From positions 1-39,224 of the IMG/VR virus record IMGVR_UViG_3300035199_000916: a stretch of 39,224 nt of DNA. One strand, given 5' to 3'. Every line of letters begins with the position of its first letter. Positions within the stretch are counted from its first letter, which is position 1. The translations under genes and the position numbers were made by a program. Shown here piece after piece: positions 2,603-21,969 of the stretch. This stretch comes from a virus. Under the pieces are notes generated by a model. It worked only from the letters and a program-made list of their open reading frames with translations. It had not been told where the DNA came from and did not search any database.

Positions 2603-3265
2603 TCAAATAATTATATCAGCTATACCTAATTCTACAGCTTCTTCTGCAGATAAATAGACATTAACCTTCCGTTCCAGCATGTTTTTAATATCCTTTTTTG
2701 TCATGCTAGTTTCTTCTATTAAACAAGCACTGTACATTTTTTGTTGTTGCTGGACGGCCTCCATTTCATTAAGGAGGTTGTGAAGCGATCCGTGACTGCC
2801 AGCAGCTACTGAGTGCAGCATCACACGACAATTTTTACCAATCTGCCTCTTTCCTTTGGTGCCGGCGGCTAAGAGGAGGACCCCTGCTGACATTACCTTC
2901 CCCATTCCAATAGTGCGGACTTCGGTTTCTTTTCTAATCTGTCGAATGACGTCATAGAGAGCAAACATGTCGTCTGCGTTTCCTCCGTAGGTCGAAATAT
3001 AGAAATCTATAGGCTTTCTTTTTTCCGGAGGTAGCTCGCGATTTACCTCATTTAAATAAAGGAATGCGTGAACTATCTCAGCTACTTTTTCTTCTATAAC
3101 TTCTGCGAATAGTCCAACTATGCGCATCTCGTCGGGAGCGGATGGTAGTGACTCACCCGGAAGGAATTCCTCTAACGTGGTAGGATCTATGAGAACGATC
3201 TTTTTCTCTTTTTTCTTTTCTTCCGTAGTAAGGCTTTCTATTATTTCTTTTATTTTCTTAATCAC
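2603..3265 (-). CDS. ClpP-like serine protease paralogue A, atypical triad
   Basis: A 220-residue member of the ClpP (S14) family. STYGGNADDMFALYDVI near 91-107 is the ClpP handle region, the nucleophile Ser126 lies in GKVMSAG, and His151 lies in VMLHSVAAG. The C-terminal LSAEEAVELGIAD matches ClpP well, but the position of the catalytic Asp just before it (DRF or DNF in bacterial ClpP) is Asn202 here (NVY). The first ~45 residues are Lys/Glu-rich and not typical. The GTG start has GGGAG at 7 bases. The gene overlaps the upstream membrane-protein gene by 8 bases. No ClpX/ClpA ATPase is in the window, so it may use the host ATPase, act alone, or pair with the second ClpP-like protein at 7882-8487. 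In other phages ClpP-type proteases also mature capsids; nothing here proves that role. Confidence 0.88.
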   Translation of the reverse strand: MIKKIKEIIESLTTEEKKKEKKIVLIDPTTLEEFLPGESLPSAPDEMRIVGLFAEVIEEKVAEIVHAFLYLNEVNRELPPEKRKPIDFYISTYGGNADDMFALYDVIRQIRKETEVRTIGMGKVMSAGVLLLAAGTKGKRQIGKNCRVMLHSVAAGSHGSLHNLLNEMEAVQQQQKMYSACLIEETSMTKKDIKNMLERKVNVYLSAEEAVELGIADIII

Positions 3266-4699: not shown

Positions 4700-5022
4700 A
4701 ATTCCGGAAACTCCTGCTCTAAGAGATCAAAAATATTTTCTATCTCTCCGTCATTAAGGGCTAGCGAGCGGACATTGTCTTTTCCTTGGTGGCGTAATCT
4801 TTTGGATTTGGCTTTTCTTTTGAGCGACTGTTGCTTACATTCGTCGATATATTCCTGAATCCTCTCGTCATCCTCTATATAGCCACTAATAATGTGACGA
4901 AAAAATTCAGATTGGCGCATGCCATCATAATTTAGTTTAACAAGCAATTTGGCGTGGCGATGATCGTTTTCAGTAAAAACGATTTTTTTGGTTAACTTTC
5001 CATAGTCCACATCATGTACCAT
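4696..5022 (-). CDS. Probable ribbon-helix-helix-type DNA-binding protein
   Basis: A 108-residue basic protein. Residues ~12-48 (KKIVFTENDHRHAKLLVKLNYDGMRQSEFFRHIISGYIEDD) look like a beta strand followed by two helices, as in ribbon-helix-helix proteins; a KRKAKSKRLRHQGK stretch follows. An ATG at 5028 is possible, but the ATG at 5022 is better placed after AAGGAA and overlaps the IMP dehydrogenase stop codon as TAATG, a classic coupling arrangement. It sits between IMP dehydrogenase and the sigma-like gene, with 4-base overlap to the latter. The fold is inferred from pattern; target DNA is unknown. Confidence 0.72.
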   Translation of the reverse strand: MVHDVDYGKLTKKIVFTENDHRHAKLLVKLNYDGMRQSEFFRHIISGYIEDDERIQEYIDECKQQSLKRKAKSKRLRHQGKDNVRSLALNDGEIENIFDLLEQEFPEL

Positions 5023-6053
5023 TACCATTTCCTTCCAACTATGTGCGTGTGGCTTTCCGATAAACCCGAGGAAGTTTGTTTTACAAATTTTGCTGTTGCA
5101 TGCAGCGCAGCCAAATCTCTGGCACCTGAATATGAAAAGCCTGACCTCATGCCGCGCTCCAAATCATTAAGAATATACTTTACGCCGCCGCGGTATGGAA
5201 CACTGGTGGAAACACCTTCAAAGGAAGCGTATTTTCCATGCCAACTAATTTGTGCTTCCTTGCTGGCCATTCCTCTATAAATCTTCCGGCGGGAGCCATC
5301 CTTTTCCTCTATCACCTTACCCGGGGTTTCGTTGGTTCCGGCTAACAGTGAACCACACATTACTGCGTCGGCGCCGGCGGCAAGGGCTTTAACAATATCT
5401 CCGGAGTTTTTAATACCTCCATCTGCGATAATGCTTATCTTGCGGTCTGTTTTTGCACAGTCTAAAATTGTTTGGAGGCCGGGCAGTCCATGTCCTGTTT
5501 GAATGCGTGTAGAACAAATGGAGCCACCTCCAATATTACAACGCGCCGAATCTGCTCCCCAGTCTGCCAAATCGTTGATTCCTTCGAGCGTGGCCACGTT
5601 GCCGGCCATAATGTGCAAGCGGGAACCAAATGCGGCACGCAAATTAGCTAAGGCTTCTTTCATTAAAACATGATGGCCATGAGCCACATCTACACACAAA
5701 AAAGTAACTCCGGCCTTGAGCAGGGCTTCAGCCCTCTCTAGGTAGTCTCCGGAAGTGCCAATAGCCGCACCCAGCAACGGGTTATGTTGTGTCGATAAAT
5801 CGTTTGCCATGTGAACCATCCGACATTGTTTCTCAACAGAGGTATACCGGTGAATGACGGACGTGGCGCCATATTTTGCCATAACTACCGCCATTGGTGT
5901 TTCAGTAATGGTGTCCATTGGAGAAGCTATAATTGGCAACTCCAGAATCAACCCATTTCCCAAATCCGTTGAAATATCAATTTCGGAACGAGACTTGATT
6001 TCGGAATATTGAGGCATAAGGAGAACGTCATCGTACGATAAGGTATGGTGCAT
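5022..6053 (-). CDS. guaB: IMP dehydrogenase-like protein without CBS domains
   Basis: A 343-residue TIM-barrel enzyme. SYDDVLLMPQYSEI at 6-19 and PMDTITE near 45 are typical of the IMPDH/GMP reductase family. The active-site loop is GGGSICSTR with Cys180, DGG lies at 211-213 and YRGMAS at 259-264. PYRGGVK near 286 and ESHTH near the C-terminus match IMPDH rather than GMP reductase, and EG precedes PYRG as in IMPDH. The CBS (Bateman) regulatory domains are missing. In the flap, the usual Arg-Tyr pair reads Lys-Tyr (GKYAS), which might affect hydrolysis and leaves GMP reductase as an alternative. IMPDH makes XMP from IMP and commits purines to GTP/dGTP. It fits the operon's other nucleotide genes. 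Confidence 0.88.
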   Translation of the reverse strand: MHHTLSYDDVLLMPQYSEIKSRSEIDISTDLGNGLILELPIIASPMDTITETPMAVVMAKYGATSVIHRYTSVEKQCRMVHMANDLSTQHNPLLGAAIGTSGDYLERAEALLKAGVTFLCVDVAHGHHVLMKEALANLRAAFGSRLHIMAGNVATLEGINDLADWGADSARCNIGGGSICSTRIQTGHGLPGLQTILDCAKTDRKISIIADGGIKNSGDIVKALAAGADAVMCGSLLAGTNETPGKVIEEKDGSRRKIYRGMASKEAQISWHGKYASFEGVSTSVPYRGGVKYILNDLERGMRSGFSYSGARDLAALHATAKFVKQTSSGLSESHTHIVGRKW

Positions 6054-7881: not shown

Positions 7882-8487
7882 TTACTTAAACTTGAAATTA
7901 ACTTTGGTTTCGATTTTCATTTCTGGGATGTGCAAGTGATTGGCAACGTTGTGTTTCTTTGCTTCGTCAGCGTCTAAAAACCAATCCGCATGGCCCTTCT
8001 CGTGAATCATGTCAAGAAAATAATCTTTATGGTGGCCACAATTCTCTGCCATCATTTGATATACTTTCTGATTTAATCTCTCGGTCTCTTCTGCGCCTGC
8101 CTTTATCTCTTCTATCTTGCCCCAATTCATCGAACTAACATCGTGAATCATAACTGTGGCATCGGGATCCATATAGCGGCGCCCTTCCGCACCAAAGCTA
8201 AATAAGATAGCACCGCAAGACATGGCTTTTCCTTGCACGATAGTAGCTATAGGAACCTTTGAATGTCTAATATCTGATATCATTGACATTAAACTATACA
8301 CTTGTCCACCATAGCTATCAATGATAACGGGTACTACGGGTTGGCCTGTGTTTTGTGCTTTCATCATTAGAGTGGTGAACTCTTTGGCTGCTGGCTCATC
8401 AAATTTGCGCACCCGAATAATAGTTGGCAGATCATCGATTAAGTTGGGCTCTTTTAAAAGTGGACTAAAATATTTTATTACATTCAT
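7882..8487 (-). CDS. ClpP-like serine protease paralogue B, intact triad
   Basis: A 201-residue ClpP-family protein. IIDSYGGQVYSL at 56-66 is the handle-strand region, Ser90 lies in GKAMSCG, His115 in VMIHDVSS, and Asp168 in HADWFLDADEA, so the Ser-His-Asp triad looks complete. It differs much from paralogue A (2603-3265), which is not a recent copy. The C-terminus ends in a basic strand (KIETKVNFKFK). It starts 3 bases after the DNA polymerase III alpha stop codon, without a strong Shine-Dalgarno site, so translation is probably coupled. It may form mixed rings with paralogue A or with host Clp proteins; this is inference. Confidence 0.9.
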   Translation of the reverse strand: MNVIKYFSPLLKEPNLIDDLPTIIRVRKFDEPAAKEFTTLMMKAQNTGQPVVPVIIDSYGGQVYSLMSMISDIRHSKVPIATIVQGKAMSCGAILFSFGAEGRRYMDPDATVMIHDVSSMNWGKIEEIKAGAEETERLNQKVYQMMAENCGHHKDYFLDMIHEKGHADWFLDADEAKKHNVANHLHIPEMKIETKVNFKFK

Positions 8488-15980: not shown

Positions 15981-17948
15981 CTAAATTGTGCACGTGTCGT
16001 TAGTACAAAATTTGCTTCCATTGCCCCCTTCATCATCTTCAAACCGGTGGATTGGGGTAATCTTCGCACTAAGGGCTTCATATTTCTTCTTGGTTATTGC
16101 CTCATAGGGAGCCTGCTCGTATCCTGTTTCTTCATATCTTAAAAAAGAAACAGCCTTTAAGCGCGTCTCATAAAGCTCAAGCGCAGTTTTAATCTGAGAT
16201 GCTTCTTCTGGCTTAAACGTGATTGTAACAGAGACTGAGTTGTCGGCCCAATAATATTGATATTGAGCCGCAGTTTCAAGTTGCTCCCAAAGTGAAATAT
16301 CTTGTTTCCCCTTCATAAAATAGGGCTCACGCACAGGAAAATCAACAACAACAGTGTTGGGAGAATATTTATCATCTTCCACGTTATAGCCGGCTTTAAT
16401 TATTGTGTCAACTAGTTTTGAAGTTTTTGAAAATCTAATTCGACGAATATAATATTCATTTTCTGGGTGGTGGATTCCCGGCGTTGAACCATTTAAGAGC
16501 GACACCGTCCCAGAGGGTTTGATCGAAGTCATTCGAATAGACTTGGGAATGCATAACCAATTAGAATATTCTTCATCCAATTGCTTTACATAAGCATAGG
16601 CTTTGTCACACATTTCGTACATGGCGCGACGACCAAATTTATTAAAAGCCTGCACAACTCCGGATTGCGAGAGGCCGATGCGACGATTTTTAAGCATCTT
16701 GGCATTTGTTTCTGGCCAATGTGTATTGGAGAGGGTGATGGTCTTACCATAGAGATAAGCAATTTTTAAGGTACGAAGATAATCATCCAAGTCATCATGT
16801 TTTGCGGGGTAAGTTTCAACTAAGCAACATAATTCTGCGTCTTCTAGTTGCTGCTCTACACACGGATTAAATCCTGCAACATTCACATCGTCATAACGTG
16901 GGCCATCCTTAAAGCGACCCCGTGTTCGAGCATTGTCGAGCCAAATATATCCCGGCTCGCCGTTCTTCTGGCTTTGCTCTGCGTGCCATGTATAGTCCAT
17001 CCCCACTTGTGCGTTGAAAGAATTGTTAGAACCCCAGCGGTGGTGGTACAGTTTTTCTTGATCGTTTTTCATTTCTAGATAATGAGTGTCGTTATAACGG
17101 CCCATTGCTAGCGCAGCCGAGCGCCGAACATTCCCGGCCACCACACATCGTCCAATTAAATTTTCAGTATCCACAATGTCAACCGAGCTAATTGGTTCTC
17201 CAATTCTTGGAGAGTAAAGTTCTCTTAAATTTTTGTGAAGTTCGACGAGAGGCTGTGGACCGCTGGAGGTGCCTCCAAATCCCTTGATTAAGGCGCCGGC
17301 TGGTCTAATTGCTGAATAATCAAACTTGGGAACCTTGGCCCCAAAATAAAAACCATCCAGCATAGTGTGTACAGAGTTAACCCATCCGTCCCGAGAGTCA
17401 TCAATCACCAGGGTATCGTTCGTATATTCTGGCTCCTGAATTGTGACCGTAGACGCGCCTTCGGTATCAAACCCCACGCCGACACCCACCATCAAGGCAT
17501 CCATCATCCAGGCAAAAAGATAGCCACCCTTTGTGCCCAGGTCGCGGGTGGATCTAAAAGCACAATTAAACAGGCCGGCTGCGGTTTTTTCTTCTACGAA
17601 TTTGGTTCCCATCATCCAAAGGCCGCGGCCGGGAGGAGACCATTTAAGATTAAACAATCGATCATACGCCTCTTTGGCGGTCTTTTGAGCCTTTCCGTCA
17701 TTCCATTCTAAGCCTAGTTGGAAGACGTGTTGTTTCTGCATATTAAACATCCCTTCTACAACGCGGCGGCACGTTTGCCACCATTCTTCGGTGCCCGTGG
17801 CATCCGGGTCAAATTCGTTTAGCCGGCGGGAATAGGTACGCTTAAATGTAATATACCCTAACGGCCCCCAGGGTACTTCTGCGTTCTTGTATGGCTCTAC
17901 GAAGGTATCTGATAATCTAAATCTGCGAATATTTTCAATTGTTCTCAT
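15981..17948 (-). CDS. nrdJ: Class II (adenosylcobalamin-dependent) ribonucleotide reductase
   Basis: A 655-residue monomeric-type ribonucleoside-triphosphate reductase like that of Lactobacillus leichmannii. Cys129 in LFNCAFRS is the first redox cysteine, NPCVE with Cys363 and Glu365 forms the radical site, Cys374/Cys375 supply the second redox cysteine, and the C-terminal CTNDTC pair passes electrons. IKPSGTVSLL near 480 is the conserved substrate-binding loop. It reduces ribonucleotides to deoxyribonucleotides using adenosylcobalamin and needs no oxygen and no small subunit, so the phage depends on host B12. The thioredoxin-like protein (6056-6421) could be a reductant. It starts 7 bases after the helicase stop, with AAAGGA 11 bases before the ATG. 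Confidence 0.95.
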   Translation of the reverse strand: MRTIENIRRFRLSDTFVEPYKNAEVPWGPLGYITFKRTYSRRLNEFDPDATGTEEWWQTCRRVVEGMFNMQKQHVFQLGLEWNDGKAQKTAKEAYDRLFNLKWSPPGRGLWMMGTKFVEEKTAAGLFNCAFRSTRDLGTKGGYLFAWMMDALMVGVGVGFDTEGASTVTIQEPEYTNDTLVIDDSRDGWVNSVHTMLDGFYFGAKVPKFDYSAIRPAGALIKGFGGTSSGPQPLVELHKNLRELYSPRIGEPISSVDIVDTENLIGRCVVAGNVRRSAALAMGRYNDTHYLEMKNDQEKLYHHRWGSNNSFNAQVGMDYTWHAEQSQKNGEPGYIWLDNARTRGRFKDGPRYDDVNVAGFNPCVEQQLEDAELCCLVETYPAKHDDLDDYLRTLKIAYLYGKTITLSNTHWPETNAKMLKNRRIGLSQSGVVQAFNKFGRRAMYEMCDKAYAYVKQLDEEYSNWLCIPKSIRMTSIKPSGTVSLLNGSTPGIHHPENEYYIRRIRFSKTSKLVDTIIKAGYNVEDDKYSPNTVVVDFPVREPYFMKGKQDISLWEQLETAAQYQYYWADNSVSVTITFKPEEASQIKTALELYETRLKAVSFLRYEETGYEQAPYEAITKKKYEALSAKITPIHRFEDDEGGNGSKFCTNDTCTI

Positions 17949-19383: not shown

Positions 19384-20340
19384 TTAACACTCAGAATTGA
19401 TTTTATTTAAATGCAATTCAAGGTCCTTCCAATTCAATTCCCCAAAACCATCATCGCGCATTTTCTTTATGATTTCTATCTTGTTGAAACTACAGTTAAA
19501 ATTCTCAATAGCGTTTCGAATAAAGTCTTTTGATTGGGGAGAAAGCATGGGAGAATATAACTGCATCATTTTGTAATTATGAGAAATAATTTTTTCTCCT
19601 TCGATAATATTGGTATGAAACTTTAGCTTTTTGTCTGCTTTTTCGCAGTATCCAACCACATCATCAATGGTGTAATCCTTGTCGGCTGCCAGAAATCCTA
19701 GGCGCCTCTGGATGCTTTTAAATCCTACTGATTTAATACCTGGCAAATTATCTGACGCATCCCCAACCAGGGATCTTGCGAGAGCCATATTACGAGGATG
19801 CACTCCTAGCTCCTCTACAATACGCTTTTTATTATAAACAACATCACTGGTAGGGCGATACACTACTGTTTCATCATCACAAAGTTGATAAAAATCCTTG
19901 TCGTTGGAAACAATTACCTTCTGCCATCCATCATAATGCGCCATTTGTGTAAGATAAGAGACAACATCGTCGGCTTCTACTTCTGGGATCATCACTTGGA
20001 TGATGGGCATCTCATTAAAATATTCAATGGCGCGGGTTTGCTGCCAAATCCGATTTTGCATCTCCTCATTTTCGTTGAGAGCTTTTACATCTCTATTCAA
20101 ACGAATCGGCTTTCGGCCGGCCTTATAATTCTTATCAAGAGAGCGGCGCTTCTGTGAGCCGTTGGGGCCATCCCAAACAATCACCACTTCGTTGGGCTTC
20201 GTCATGCGTACAAGCTTTTGAAGAATCTTAAGAGAGCCCTTGAAGCCTCCGATGGGTTCTCCATTCGTGGACAATGATGGATCCACAATATAGGCTCTCA
20301 AAAACATATTGAGAGCATCGATAATTAATACTCTTTTCAT
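19384..20340 (-). CDS. 5'-3' exonuclease / flap endonuclease (Pol I N-domain and RNase H type)
   Basis: A 318-residue FEN-family nuclease. Metal ligands are clear: Asp8 in LIIDALNMFLRAY, Asp57 in VIVWDGP, EVEADD at 120-125, VSNDKD with Asp147/Asp149, and GDASDNLPGI with Asp194/Asp197, followed by the helix-hairpin-helix GIKSVGFKSI. It would remove RNA primers and 5' flaps from lagging-strand fragments. The compact A-family polymerase (24975-26162) lacks such a domain, so together they provide the two activities of bacterial Pol I as separate proteins. It overlaps the dCMP deaminase by 4 bases (ATGA). Confidence 0.93.
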   Translation of the reverse strand: MKRVLIIDALNMFLRAYIVDPSLSTNGEPIGGFKGSLKILQKLVRMTKPNEVVIVWDGPNGSQKRRSLDKNYKAGRKPIRLNRDVKALNENEEMQNRIWQQTRAIEYFNEMPIIQVMIPEVEADDVVSYLTQMAHYDGWQKVIVSNDKDFYQLCDDETVVYRPTSDVVYNKKRIVEELGVHPRNMALARSLVGDASDNLPGIKSVGFKSIQRRLGFLAADKDYTIDDVVGYCEKADKKLKFHTNIIEGEKIISHNYKMMQLYSPMLSPQSKDFIRNAIENFNCSFNKIEIIKKMRDDGFGELNWKDLELHLNKINSEC

Positions 20341-20780
20341 AATTTATAACTTCCTGCTATTTTATTATTAATTGTATAGACAACGCGCTTAACTCCCACG
20401 TGCTTAAGCGCCTGGTGGCACATAGAGCATGGTTTGGAGAGCTTGTAGTCTCCCTCGCGGCCCACCCTCGCCACATACAAGGTAGCCCCGTCAGTAATGT
20501 GTCGATCCATCCCTATGATGGCGCCGAGTTCTGCATGCAGGGTTGTCTTACCTGCGTGCTCTTTCTGGAAGCGGGAACCAAAAGCACAATAATTGTCCTT
20601 GTTAAAGGAGGTGTTGCGTATGGATCCTTTGACCAGTATCGCGCCATGGCGATAATCCGGAAACTCGGACTGATGTGCCACTCTGCGGGCTAGCTCCATA
20701 TAACGCCGCGTCTTTCCCGAGTAGTGGTGGAACCTTTCAGCACCATAATCCGATTCATACTCTCTTGCAAATGTCGACAC
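20337..20780 (-). CDS. dCMP deaminase-like zinc enzyme
   Basis: A 147-residue cytidine/deoxycytidylate deaminase-family protein. HAE at 82-84 holds the zinc His and the catalytic Glu, and PCSMC at 117-121 gives the two zinc cysteines (118, 121). VKRVVYTINN closes the fold. It probably turns dCMP into dUMP, the thymidylate precursor, complementing dUTPase. The second, allosteric zinc site of T4 dCMP deaminase is not obvious. The start is GTG at 20780, preceded by AGGAGGG at 4 bases; that site lies in a stem described separately. It overlaps the exonuclease gene by 4 bases. Confidence 0.88.
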   Translation of the reverse strand: MSTFAREYESDYGAERFHHYSGKTRRYMELARRVAHQSEFPDYRHGAILVKGSIRNTSFNKDNYCAFGSRFQKEHAGKTTLHAELGAIIGMDRHITDGATLYVARVGREGDYKLSKPCSMCHQALKHVGVKRVVYTINNKIAGSYKL

Positions 20781-20782
20781 AA

Positions 20783-20830
20783 AGCCCTCCTACAAGCTTA
20801 TACCTAAGTATAACGTATTGCGGGAGGGCT
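20783..20830 (-). promoter_or_regulatory. Inverted repeat that would hide the dCMP deaminase ribosome-binding site
   Basis: AGCCCTCC and GGAGGGCT form a perfect 8-bp stem whose arms lie at 20783-20790 and 20823-20830, with a nested 6-bp stem (TTATAC/GTATAA, CTAA loop on the plus strand) at 20798-20813. The downstream arm in the RNA is the Shine-Dalgarno site. The other arm lies upstream of the -10 box, so only read-through RNA from recA can form the stem. Confidence 0.7.
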
Positions 20831-20835
20831 GTCAA
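20807..20835 (-). promoter_or_regulatory. Sigma-70 promoter for dCMP deaminase and exonuclease
   Basis: TTGACA, 17 bases, TATACT, with CGT before the -10 box. Placed between the RecA-like stop codon and the deaminase GTG start. Confidence 0.82.
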
Positions 20836-20841
20836 GCGTTT

Positions 20842-21969
20842 TTATTGAGGATCTGAGTAAAATTGATCGGCTGAACCTTCGCGTTTATCAAACTTCTGGA
20901 CTACTTCTTCATCCATCAGCGTTATAACTTTCGCTCGGAACTCTTCATCTGTGCTCAGCAGTTCGGCCCACTTAGATGGTTGAAATTTCTTTTCGTAGCC
21001 ATCTGGCATCGCAAGTGTATACCATGCGCCGGCGCTCTTCATATGCTCGGATCCCTTCACAGCATCAAACCACGACTCTTCATCACGGATACCAATATCT
21101 TCTGTTCCCCATAAAATGCGGAAAGCACAAGTTCTACCTTGCGTCCCAAAGCGCGACTTCTCCAGCTTTACCTTAACCTCTGAACCAATGCGAAAGCCCT
21201 TATCATCCTCGATGAAGGAGGCTTTGGCTTTGCGACCGGTAAGCCAGATTCGCAGGGAATAAGAATAGTGCATCGCCTTTCCGCCGGGTGTCATATAGGG
21301 CGTCGTCATCGCAATAATACGTGCATTAGGGCCGCTGGGGATATTTGTCTTAAGCTGGTTGAGAACCACGAAAGTGGCTTGCTTATCCGCAATAGGGATA
21401 ATTAGCTTTGACATTCCCTTGGCGAGAATGCGGGCCTTCACAGCCATGGTAGACTGAGGATTGAAGTCCCCTTCCACATCAGATACAGATGGAGTGAGAG
21501 CTAGAGAATCCCAGATAAATAGTAACTGTTCATCGGTCGCTCCCAGCAATTCCTCGACTGTCTCTAATACAAATTCCACAGAGGATGCCTGAACATACAT
21601 TAATCGCTCTAGGTTGCATCCTGTGCGCTCCAAGAAGCTTGGGTCGATGGCAGACTCGGAATCAAAGTAAACGACCATCTTGCCCTGTTTCTGGGCGTTT
21701 GCGGCTATCTGTGCAGCCATGTATGATTTGCCAGTACTTTCCAGGCCTGCAAGTTCGGTCACCTTGCCGACAGGGATCCCGGTGACCTTTCCTTTGCTAA
21801 TGATGGAATCCAACCAGCGCGAGCCGGTTGGGATCCATTCCTTTACTTCGGTTGGGTTATCGCCAGTCAAATCATGAGCAACGTTGCGGCCGGCTTTCTT
21901 ATTAACAAGGCTCATTAAGTCTTGCATTGAAACACGGCCAGCTTTGGCTTCTTTCGTTTTTCTTGCCAT
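20842..21969 (-). CDS. RecA/UvsX-like recombinase
   Basis: A 375-residue strand-exchange protein. Walker A reads GLESTGKS at 75-82 (GPESSGKT in RecA), followed by VVYFDSESAIDP, the segment with the catalytic Glu region, and Walker B LLFIWDSLAL. VVLNQLKTN corresponds to the ATP-sensing Gln and the start of loop L2; PYMTPGGKAM follows it. Length and loops fit phage UvsX-type proteins more than bacterial RecA. It would drive recombination-dependent replication and repair with the gp32-like protein at 23286-24050. The ATG at 21969 has AAGGAG at 5 bases; a longer reading to 22071 overlaps the upstream gene and is rejected. Confidence 0.93.
   Translation of the reverse strand: MARKTKEAKAGRVSMQDLMSLVNKKAGRNVAHDLTGDNPTEVKEWIPTGSRWLDSIISKGKVTGIPVGKVTELAGLESTGKSYMAAQIAANAQKQGKMVVYFDSESAIDPSFLERTGCNLERLMYVQASSVEFVLETVEELLGATDEQLLFIWDSLALTPSVSDVEGDFNPQSTMAVKARILAKGMSKLIIPIADKQATFVVLNQLKTNIPSGPNARIIAMTTPYMTPGGKAMHYSYSLRIWLTGRKAKASFIEDDKGFRIGSEVKVKLEKSRFGTQGRTCAFRILWGTEDIGIRDEESWFDAVKGSEHMKSAGAWYTLAMPDGYEKKFQPSKWAELLSTDEEFRAKVITLMDEEVVQKFDKREGSADQFYSDPQ

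Follow-up and report, generated by a model that had tools for sequence, protein, structure and literature searches.

The question raised by this locus is why the ribosome-binding site of a phage gene should be complementary to part of the promoter in front of it. In the window (the whole 39,224-nt stretch of viral DNA that was analysed), genes for a recombinase, a deaminase and an exonuclease follow one another on the minus strand (Table 1). A sequence-only reading had claimed that a stem covers the ribosome site of the deaminase gene in RNA that reads through from recA and leaves it free in RNA that starts at the gene's own promoter. Computation shows that the hairpin exists, that it is conserved and its arms covary, that it sits inside a promoter immediately behind a gene on the same strand, and that it recurs ahead of further phage genes. 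These results point to a cis-regulatory element in which the origin of the RNA governs its translation, by sequestration of the Shine-Dalgarno (SD) sequence, and we consider this interpretation very probable.

The promoter and hairpin of the deaminase operon

The recA stop codon (TAA, 20844-20842, minus strand) is separated from the GTG start codon of the deaminase gene by 61 nt, which read AAACGC TTGACA GCCCTCCCGCAATACGT TATACT TAGGTATAAGCTTGTAGGAGGGCTTT on the minus strand, with TTGACA beginning at 20835. The promoter that had been placed at 20807-20835 is well formed, with a TTGACA box, a spacer of 17 nt and a TATACT box, and it scores 11 out of 12. The SD sequence GGAGG lies 5 nt from the GTG. 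The stop codon of the deaminase gene and the start codon of the exonuclease gene overlap as ATGA.

The inverted repeat spanning 20783-20830 is perfect over 8 bp, and its letters match exactly. As the sequence-only reading had it, one arm sits on the SD sequence and the other is upstream of the -10 box. The latter can be located more precisely between the -35 and -10 boxes, since its first base closes the -35 box and its other 7 nt open the spacer. The 6-bp stem nested within the repeat is also there and spans the -10 box. RNA folding extends the hairpin past the 8-bp arms, by the pairing of GCAA with TTGT and of the -35 box with TGTCGA over the start codon. The fold has a minimum free energy of -29.4 kcal/mol (z = -3.4), and 1 of 200 shuffled sequences folded equally well. 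The start region of the deaminase gene has the strongest fold of the 34 gene starts in the window, at -27.5 kcal/mol, followed by one at -22.2. A scan of the window with Rfam covariance models at gathering thresholds gave 0 matches. The observation of the hairpin is confirmed and is far above chance expectation.

Table 1. Genes, promoter boxes and hairpin parts at the deaminase locus of the window
Feature	Position	Strand	Remarks
recA/UvsX-like recombinase gene	20842..21969	-	Pfam RecA 7.7e-35; PHROG UvsX-like 7.5e-61
-35 box TTGACA	20830..20835	-	Also predicted to pair, in read-through RNA, with TGTCGA over the start codon
Arm 1 (anti-SD), AGCCCTCC	20823..20830	-	In the -35/-10 spacer; covaries with arm 2 in relatives
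Stem extension GCAA	20818..20821	-	Pairs with TTGT, 20795-20792
Nested stem, 5' side, TTATAC	20808..20813	-	Pairs with GTATAA
-10 box TATACT	20807..20812	-	17-nt spacer; box kept in relatives
Predicted transcription start region	20799..20801	-	About 7 nt past the -10 box; from promoter geometry
Nested stem, 3' side, GTATAA	20798..20803	-	Pairs with TTATAC
Arm 2, GGAGGGCT	20783..20790	-	Contains the SD sequence GGAGG, 20790-20786
dCMP/cytidine-deaminase-like gene	20337..20780	-	147 aa, GTG start; Pfam PF00383 4.7e-12; PHROG dCMP deaminase 7.6e-22
5'-3' exonuclease gene	19384..20340	-	Pfam 5_3_exonuc_N 4.6e-30

Conservation and covariation of the arms

The hairpin is widely conserved in relatives of this phage. 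A deaminase search yielded 34 viral contigs, and the number rose to 80 (57-87% protein identity) when the search was based on an alignment; all of the relatives compared are metagenomic contigs. Among cultured phages, a near-identity DNA search gave no match, and protein searches gave only distant relatives with less than 60% identity and no close one. A deaminase profile search of bacterial genomes found no relatives. The same hairpin, with the SD sequence in its 3' arm, is found in 44 of the 51 distinct elements of the relatives. The order of the parts is nearly constant and consists of TTGAC[A/T/C], a CT-rich arm in the spacer, a TATA box, a GGAGG-type SD sequence and the start codon. The spacer is 17 nt or sometimes 18 nt long. 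Examples of the paired arms are CCTCCCGATCGGTTA/TAACCGATCGGGAGG in L143, AGCCCTTCTTTCG/CGAAGGAAGGGCT in L116, CCCCCTCAA/TTGAGGGGG in L147, and CCTCCCAAAC/GTTTGGGAGG in L140.

Compensatory changes were checked in these relatives, and the arms covary across clades: a stem position flanking the SD sequence can show as many as four Watson-Crick pair types. In the nine arm-bearing clades, mean energies of the duplexes between arms of one clade lie between -17 and -29 kcal/mol, and by the same duplex energies arms swapped between clades pair more weakly, with few exceptions. A MAFFT alignment of the elements mis-registered the arms between clades and was set aside, and pairs were therefore counted in a table anchored on the structure, which comprises 51 elements (43 from deaminase loci and 8 more distant). 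At the stem positions flanking the SD sequence this table contains 80 G.U and 14 A.C pairs, and when the fit uses Watson-Crick pairs alone, a stricter procedure, the numbers are 27 and 5; the sequences share ancestry, so these are not counts of independent events. Such an excess of G.U is in the direction that pairing in the sense RNA would produce, and it is only mild evidence for it because the G-rich SD arm and the fitting partly favour G.U and the sequences are related.

Some relatives show that the hairpin is not indispensable, because L112-L114 keep a good SD sequence after the strong arm pairing has gone; the predicted cost of opening it is about 3 kcal/mol. Arm 1 is missing from L119, L122 and L141, and the protein tree groups all three with L116 and L118, which have strong hairpins. 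In this subclade the hairpin is gone where the SD sequence is absent or weak. The leaders of L119 and L122 are about 9 nt long. The deaminase gene of L141 has TATAAT, the 7 nt ATAGTAT and then ATG, and both the SD sequence and the anti-SD arm are absent. Its own RNA is apparently leaderless, and a read-through RNA would present an internal ATG that has no SD sequence. Judging from this one contig, the leaderless layout may be an alternative route to the same outcome.

Predicted accessibility of the ribosome-binding site

Folding predictions agree with the claim that the SD sequence is hidden in read-through RNA and exposed in RNA from the gene's own promoter. Three RNAs were folded for each of 47 elements: the read-through RNA, an RNA starting 7 nt after the -10 box, and a long RNA with the spacer reversed. 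The predicted cost of opening the SD sequence averages 12.7 kcal/mol in the read-through RNA (16.3 in the window) and 3.3 kcal/mol in the promoter-started RNA (4.2 in the window). With the reversed spacer the mean is 6.3 kcal/mol; the value for the window is high, 13.3, because that particular reversal still pairs. For one relative, L106, the prediction does not go the expected way (4.0 vs 7.0). By the folds and the opening costs, the SD sequence and/or start codon is predicted to be paired in the long RNA. In every relative measured, arm 1 stops 19-23 nt short of the predicted start, so the RNA from the gene's own promoter, with a predicted leader of 13-22 nt, cannot contain it. Given the predicted start, the promoter would thus produce an RNA that lacks the 5' arm.

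The proposed mechanism is as follows. A sigma-70-type promoter placed directly after the recA stop codon would encode an anti-SD arm in the spacer between its -35 and -10 boxes, and the SD sequence of the deaminase/exonuclease operon would be the arm that matches it. RNA reading through from recA would contain both arms, form the hairpin over the SD sequence and start codon, and be poorly translated. RNA started at the promoter would have its 5' end about 20 nt past arm 1, and with its SD sequence therefore open it would be translated. The protein output of the operon would then track its own promoter alone, insulated from whatever is transcribed from the gene before it. In this scheme we infer where the RNA starts, that read-through RNA exists, how strongly it is repressed, and a purpose in timing or insulation.

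Genes on either side of the element

The element lies close behind another gene in nearly all cases. In the window the gap between the recA stop codon and the -35 box is 6 nt. No terminator-like site was found on the minus strand from the element to 24344, and read-through from recA is therefore expected. An upstream gene could be assigned in 55 representatives, and in 50 of these a co-directional stop codon and the -35 box are -4 to 23 nt apart. The upstream gene is recA in 24 and a gene for a small His/Trp-rich protein in 17, with other genes elsewhere. The small His/Trp-rich protein, to which no function was assigned, replaces recA directly before the element in L120, L121, L123, L134, L148, L149, L157, L168 and L187.

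The gene that follows also varies. After recA and the element comes a gene for the deaminase, UvdE (L164, L190, L198), the exonuclease (L042, L049, L070), or a Pyr_excise-type protein (L073, where arm pairing is comparatively weak). The exonuclease gene is directly after the element in L061 as well. UvdE (UV endonuclease) genes are found behind the same promoter and anti-SD element in L164, L187, L190, L192, L198, L206, L218 and L220. The three contigs with UvdE directly after recA suggest that the slot behind recA may hold interchangeable DNA-repair cassettes.

Recurrence of the element was examined with a gene-blind pattern of fixed geometry, TTGACW-N4-CCTCC-N7/8-TATAAT-N6..24-GGAGG. It matches 72 viral contigs, while control patterns in which CCTCC is replaced by CCACC or GGAGG match 3 and 4. 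The 72 matches precede about 20 gene families, including deaminases (27) and UvdE (8) as well as dNMP kinase, Pyr_excise, HicA toxin, metallophosphoesterase, a macro-domain-like protein and several unknowns. Most of them pair well past the five specified bases, and the innermost flanking position is 74% complementary. Of the 262 strong promoters present in the fetched loci, most of those with a comparable pairing between spacer and leader belong to the promoter/anti-SD element. A similar element, at 1802-1857 of L214 (IMG/VR record 2888218590, 42 kb), precedes a HicA-like toxin gene.

In bacterial genomes the same pattern gave 90 matches. Their flanking complementarity is near background, so few of them look like real hairpins. 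Candidates that do are L240, L261/L262/L305 (Megasphaera), L277/L287, L278 and L291/L300, where the match between promoter spacer and SD region is close and about 9-15 bp long.

Other features of the window

The leader of a gp32-like single-stranded DNA-binding protein (SSB) gene, at 24134-24051 on the minus strand, has a TTGACA/TATATT promoter followed by the hairpin AGATATCAAG-GAACG-CTTGATAT. Its stem changes in step in relatives (L021, L112, L143, L029) around a nearly constant GGAA loop, and the hairpin is possibly an autogenous RNA operator of the phage SSB. From its sequence alone, the window also seems to encode, at 1-1138, 2603-3265, 5022-6053, 7882-8487 and 15981-17948, a set of proteins that comprises a GroEL-like, two ClpP-like, an IMP-dehydrogenase-like and a ribonucleotide-reductase-like one.

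Alternative explanations

A GC-rich hairpin between two genes could be mainly an intrinsic terminator or attenuator, which would stop polymerase coming from recA before the start codon, the SD sequence being part of the stem by economy. A T-run does follow arm 2 in several clades (TTTTTTTT in L140, TTTTTGTT in L123, TTTTTGTG in L121), with positive scores by a d'Aubenton-Carafa-type formula. However, the tail in the window is just TTTGTGTC, with a borderline score of 2.5, many relatives have negative scores (L002, L008, L021, L149), and the loops and spans exceed those of typical terminators. While the tail is weak or absent in the window's clade and others, burial of the SD sequence is nearly universal among clades, and this constant feature makes termination an unlikely main function. 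Termination may add to the effect on the SD sequence in some clades with T-rich tails. Chance complementarity between a strong SD sequence and an unrelated CT-rich spacer has also to be considered, since an 8-bp match that includes GGAGG is not very rare by itself (p about 0.009 when the spacer of the window is shuffled). Conservation of the hairpin in relatives removes this explanation: covariation in dozens of them, together with the 72 pattern matches against 3-4 for the controls, leaves chance extremely improbable.

Two further explanations involve a regulator that binds the repeat. The dyad has its center close to the -10 box, where operators classically lie, and a dimeric repressor might bind the DNA there; the similar layout before the bacterial BioY-like genes of L291 and L300 might be such a repressor operator instead. 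In the phage elements, however, neither a conserved half-site nor a fixed spacing was found. The half-sites differ between clades while their complementarity is kept, and the separation of the arms varies from 24 to 35 nt without fixed phase, which is a poor fit to a protein-bound dyad. One arm is nearly always the SD sequence, apparent G.U pairs outnumber A.C pairs, and the layout occurs before many unrelated genes on unrelated contigs, all of which makes an operator very unlikely. The hairpin could also be a leader that responds to a ligand or protein, so that a signal such as a phage protein opens it in the long RNA and the read-through RNA is regulated rather than silent. The length and conservation of the hairpin would suit such a leader, and the T4 SSB and polymerase mRNAs are autoregulated through RNA operators (PMC3014915). 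On the other hand, the loop and nested-stem sequences vary between clades, no conserved unpaired motif was seen, and the element serves many unrelated genes; we regard a responsive leader as highly improbable.

Relation to known systems and significance

Sequestration that depends on the promoter of origin has a precedent in phage T4, as the sequence-only reading noted. Translation of the T4 genes e, soc, 49 and I-TevI, and also of segB and Aeh1 mobE, is gated by hairpins: the read-through RNA buries the SD sequence or start codon, and translation proceeds on RNA that starts at a promoter within the hairpin and lacks the 5' arm (PMC3014915, PMC2988022). The element described here resembles these genes in that the SD sequence is predicted to be buried in read-through RNA and the 5' arm to be absent from the gene's own RNA. 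The T4 promoters, however, are gp55-dependent late promoters (TATAAATA), while the promoter here is TTGACA-17-TATACT and those of the relatives have TTGAC[A/T/C] and TATA boxes. Because of this difference in promoter type the element does not belong to the T4 late-promoter set. The T4 genes are late or homing genes, while those found here have nucleotide and DNA-repair functions. In contrast to T4, arm 1 lies between the -35 and -10 boxes, and the element recurs across many clades and gene families.

Other systems share parts of this logic. In IS10 and IS50, fold-back inhibition of read-through transposase mRNA gives protection from external promoters. The promoter there is likewise of the sigma-70 type, and the ribosome site is covered by folding of the read-through RNA but left free in RNA made by the element itself. 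These systems differ in that they control a transposase and take the arm from the terminal region of the element, while here the arm is in the promoter spacer of phage operons. The downstream genes are a dCMP deaminase and a 5'-3' exonuclease, not a transposase in an insertion sequence. With the long undecoded transcript isoforms (LUTI) of yeast, transcription from an upstream promoter gives a longer RNA that is not decoded, and the proximal promoter gives a shorter one that is. LUTI is eukaryotic and works through upstream open reading frames and chromatin, with no SD pairing, so it is an analogy only. A literature search, mostly outside subscription papers, for a version in a sigma-70 spacer or for gating of read-through in phages found only the T4 and Aeh1 cases. 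The promoter-of-origin logic is known from T4 e and I-TevI, and the element is most likely a new and widespread variant of it. New are the arm inside a sigma-70-type spacer, support at the level of covariation, the use for DNA metabolism genes of early type, and the broad spread of the element over viral contigs.

The element may serve temporal gating, with the output of the operon tied to the activity of the deaminase promoter alone. Alternatively, it may insulate against variable upstream transcription where the product is a nuclease or mutator with the potential for harm, an option that fits its appearance as a cassette behind different genes. On balance we lean towards a widespread and undescribed class of phage cassette, in which a sigma-70-type promoter with an anti-SD arm in its spacer would permit translation only from that promoter and act as a portable insulator of accessory genes (deaminase, UvdE, Pyr_excise, dNMP kinase, HicA) behind recA and other genes.

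The compact gene order of phages forces promoters directly behind other genes, which makes read-through unavoidable. If the proposed mechanism is correct, the element would be a protein-free answer to read-through in about 55 nt, and it would extend a textbook mechanism of T4 from late promoters to ordinary bacterial promoters. Because the element is recognizable by sequence (72 matches vs 3-4), promoter-of-origin control becomes testable genome-wide. The results also suggest that the element could serve in synthetic constructs as a portable part that shields genes from read-through.
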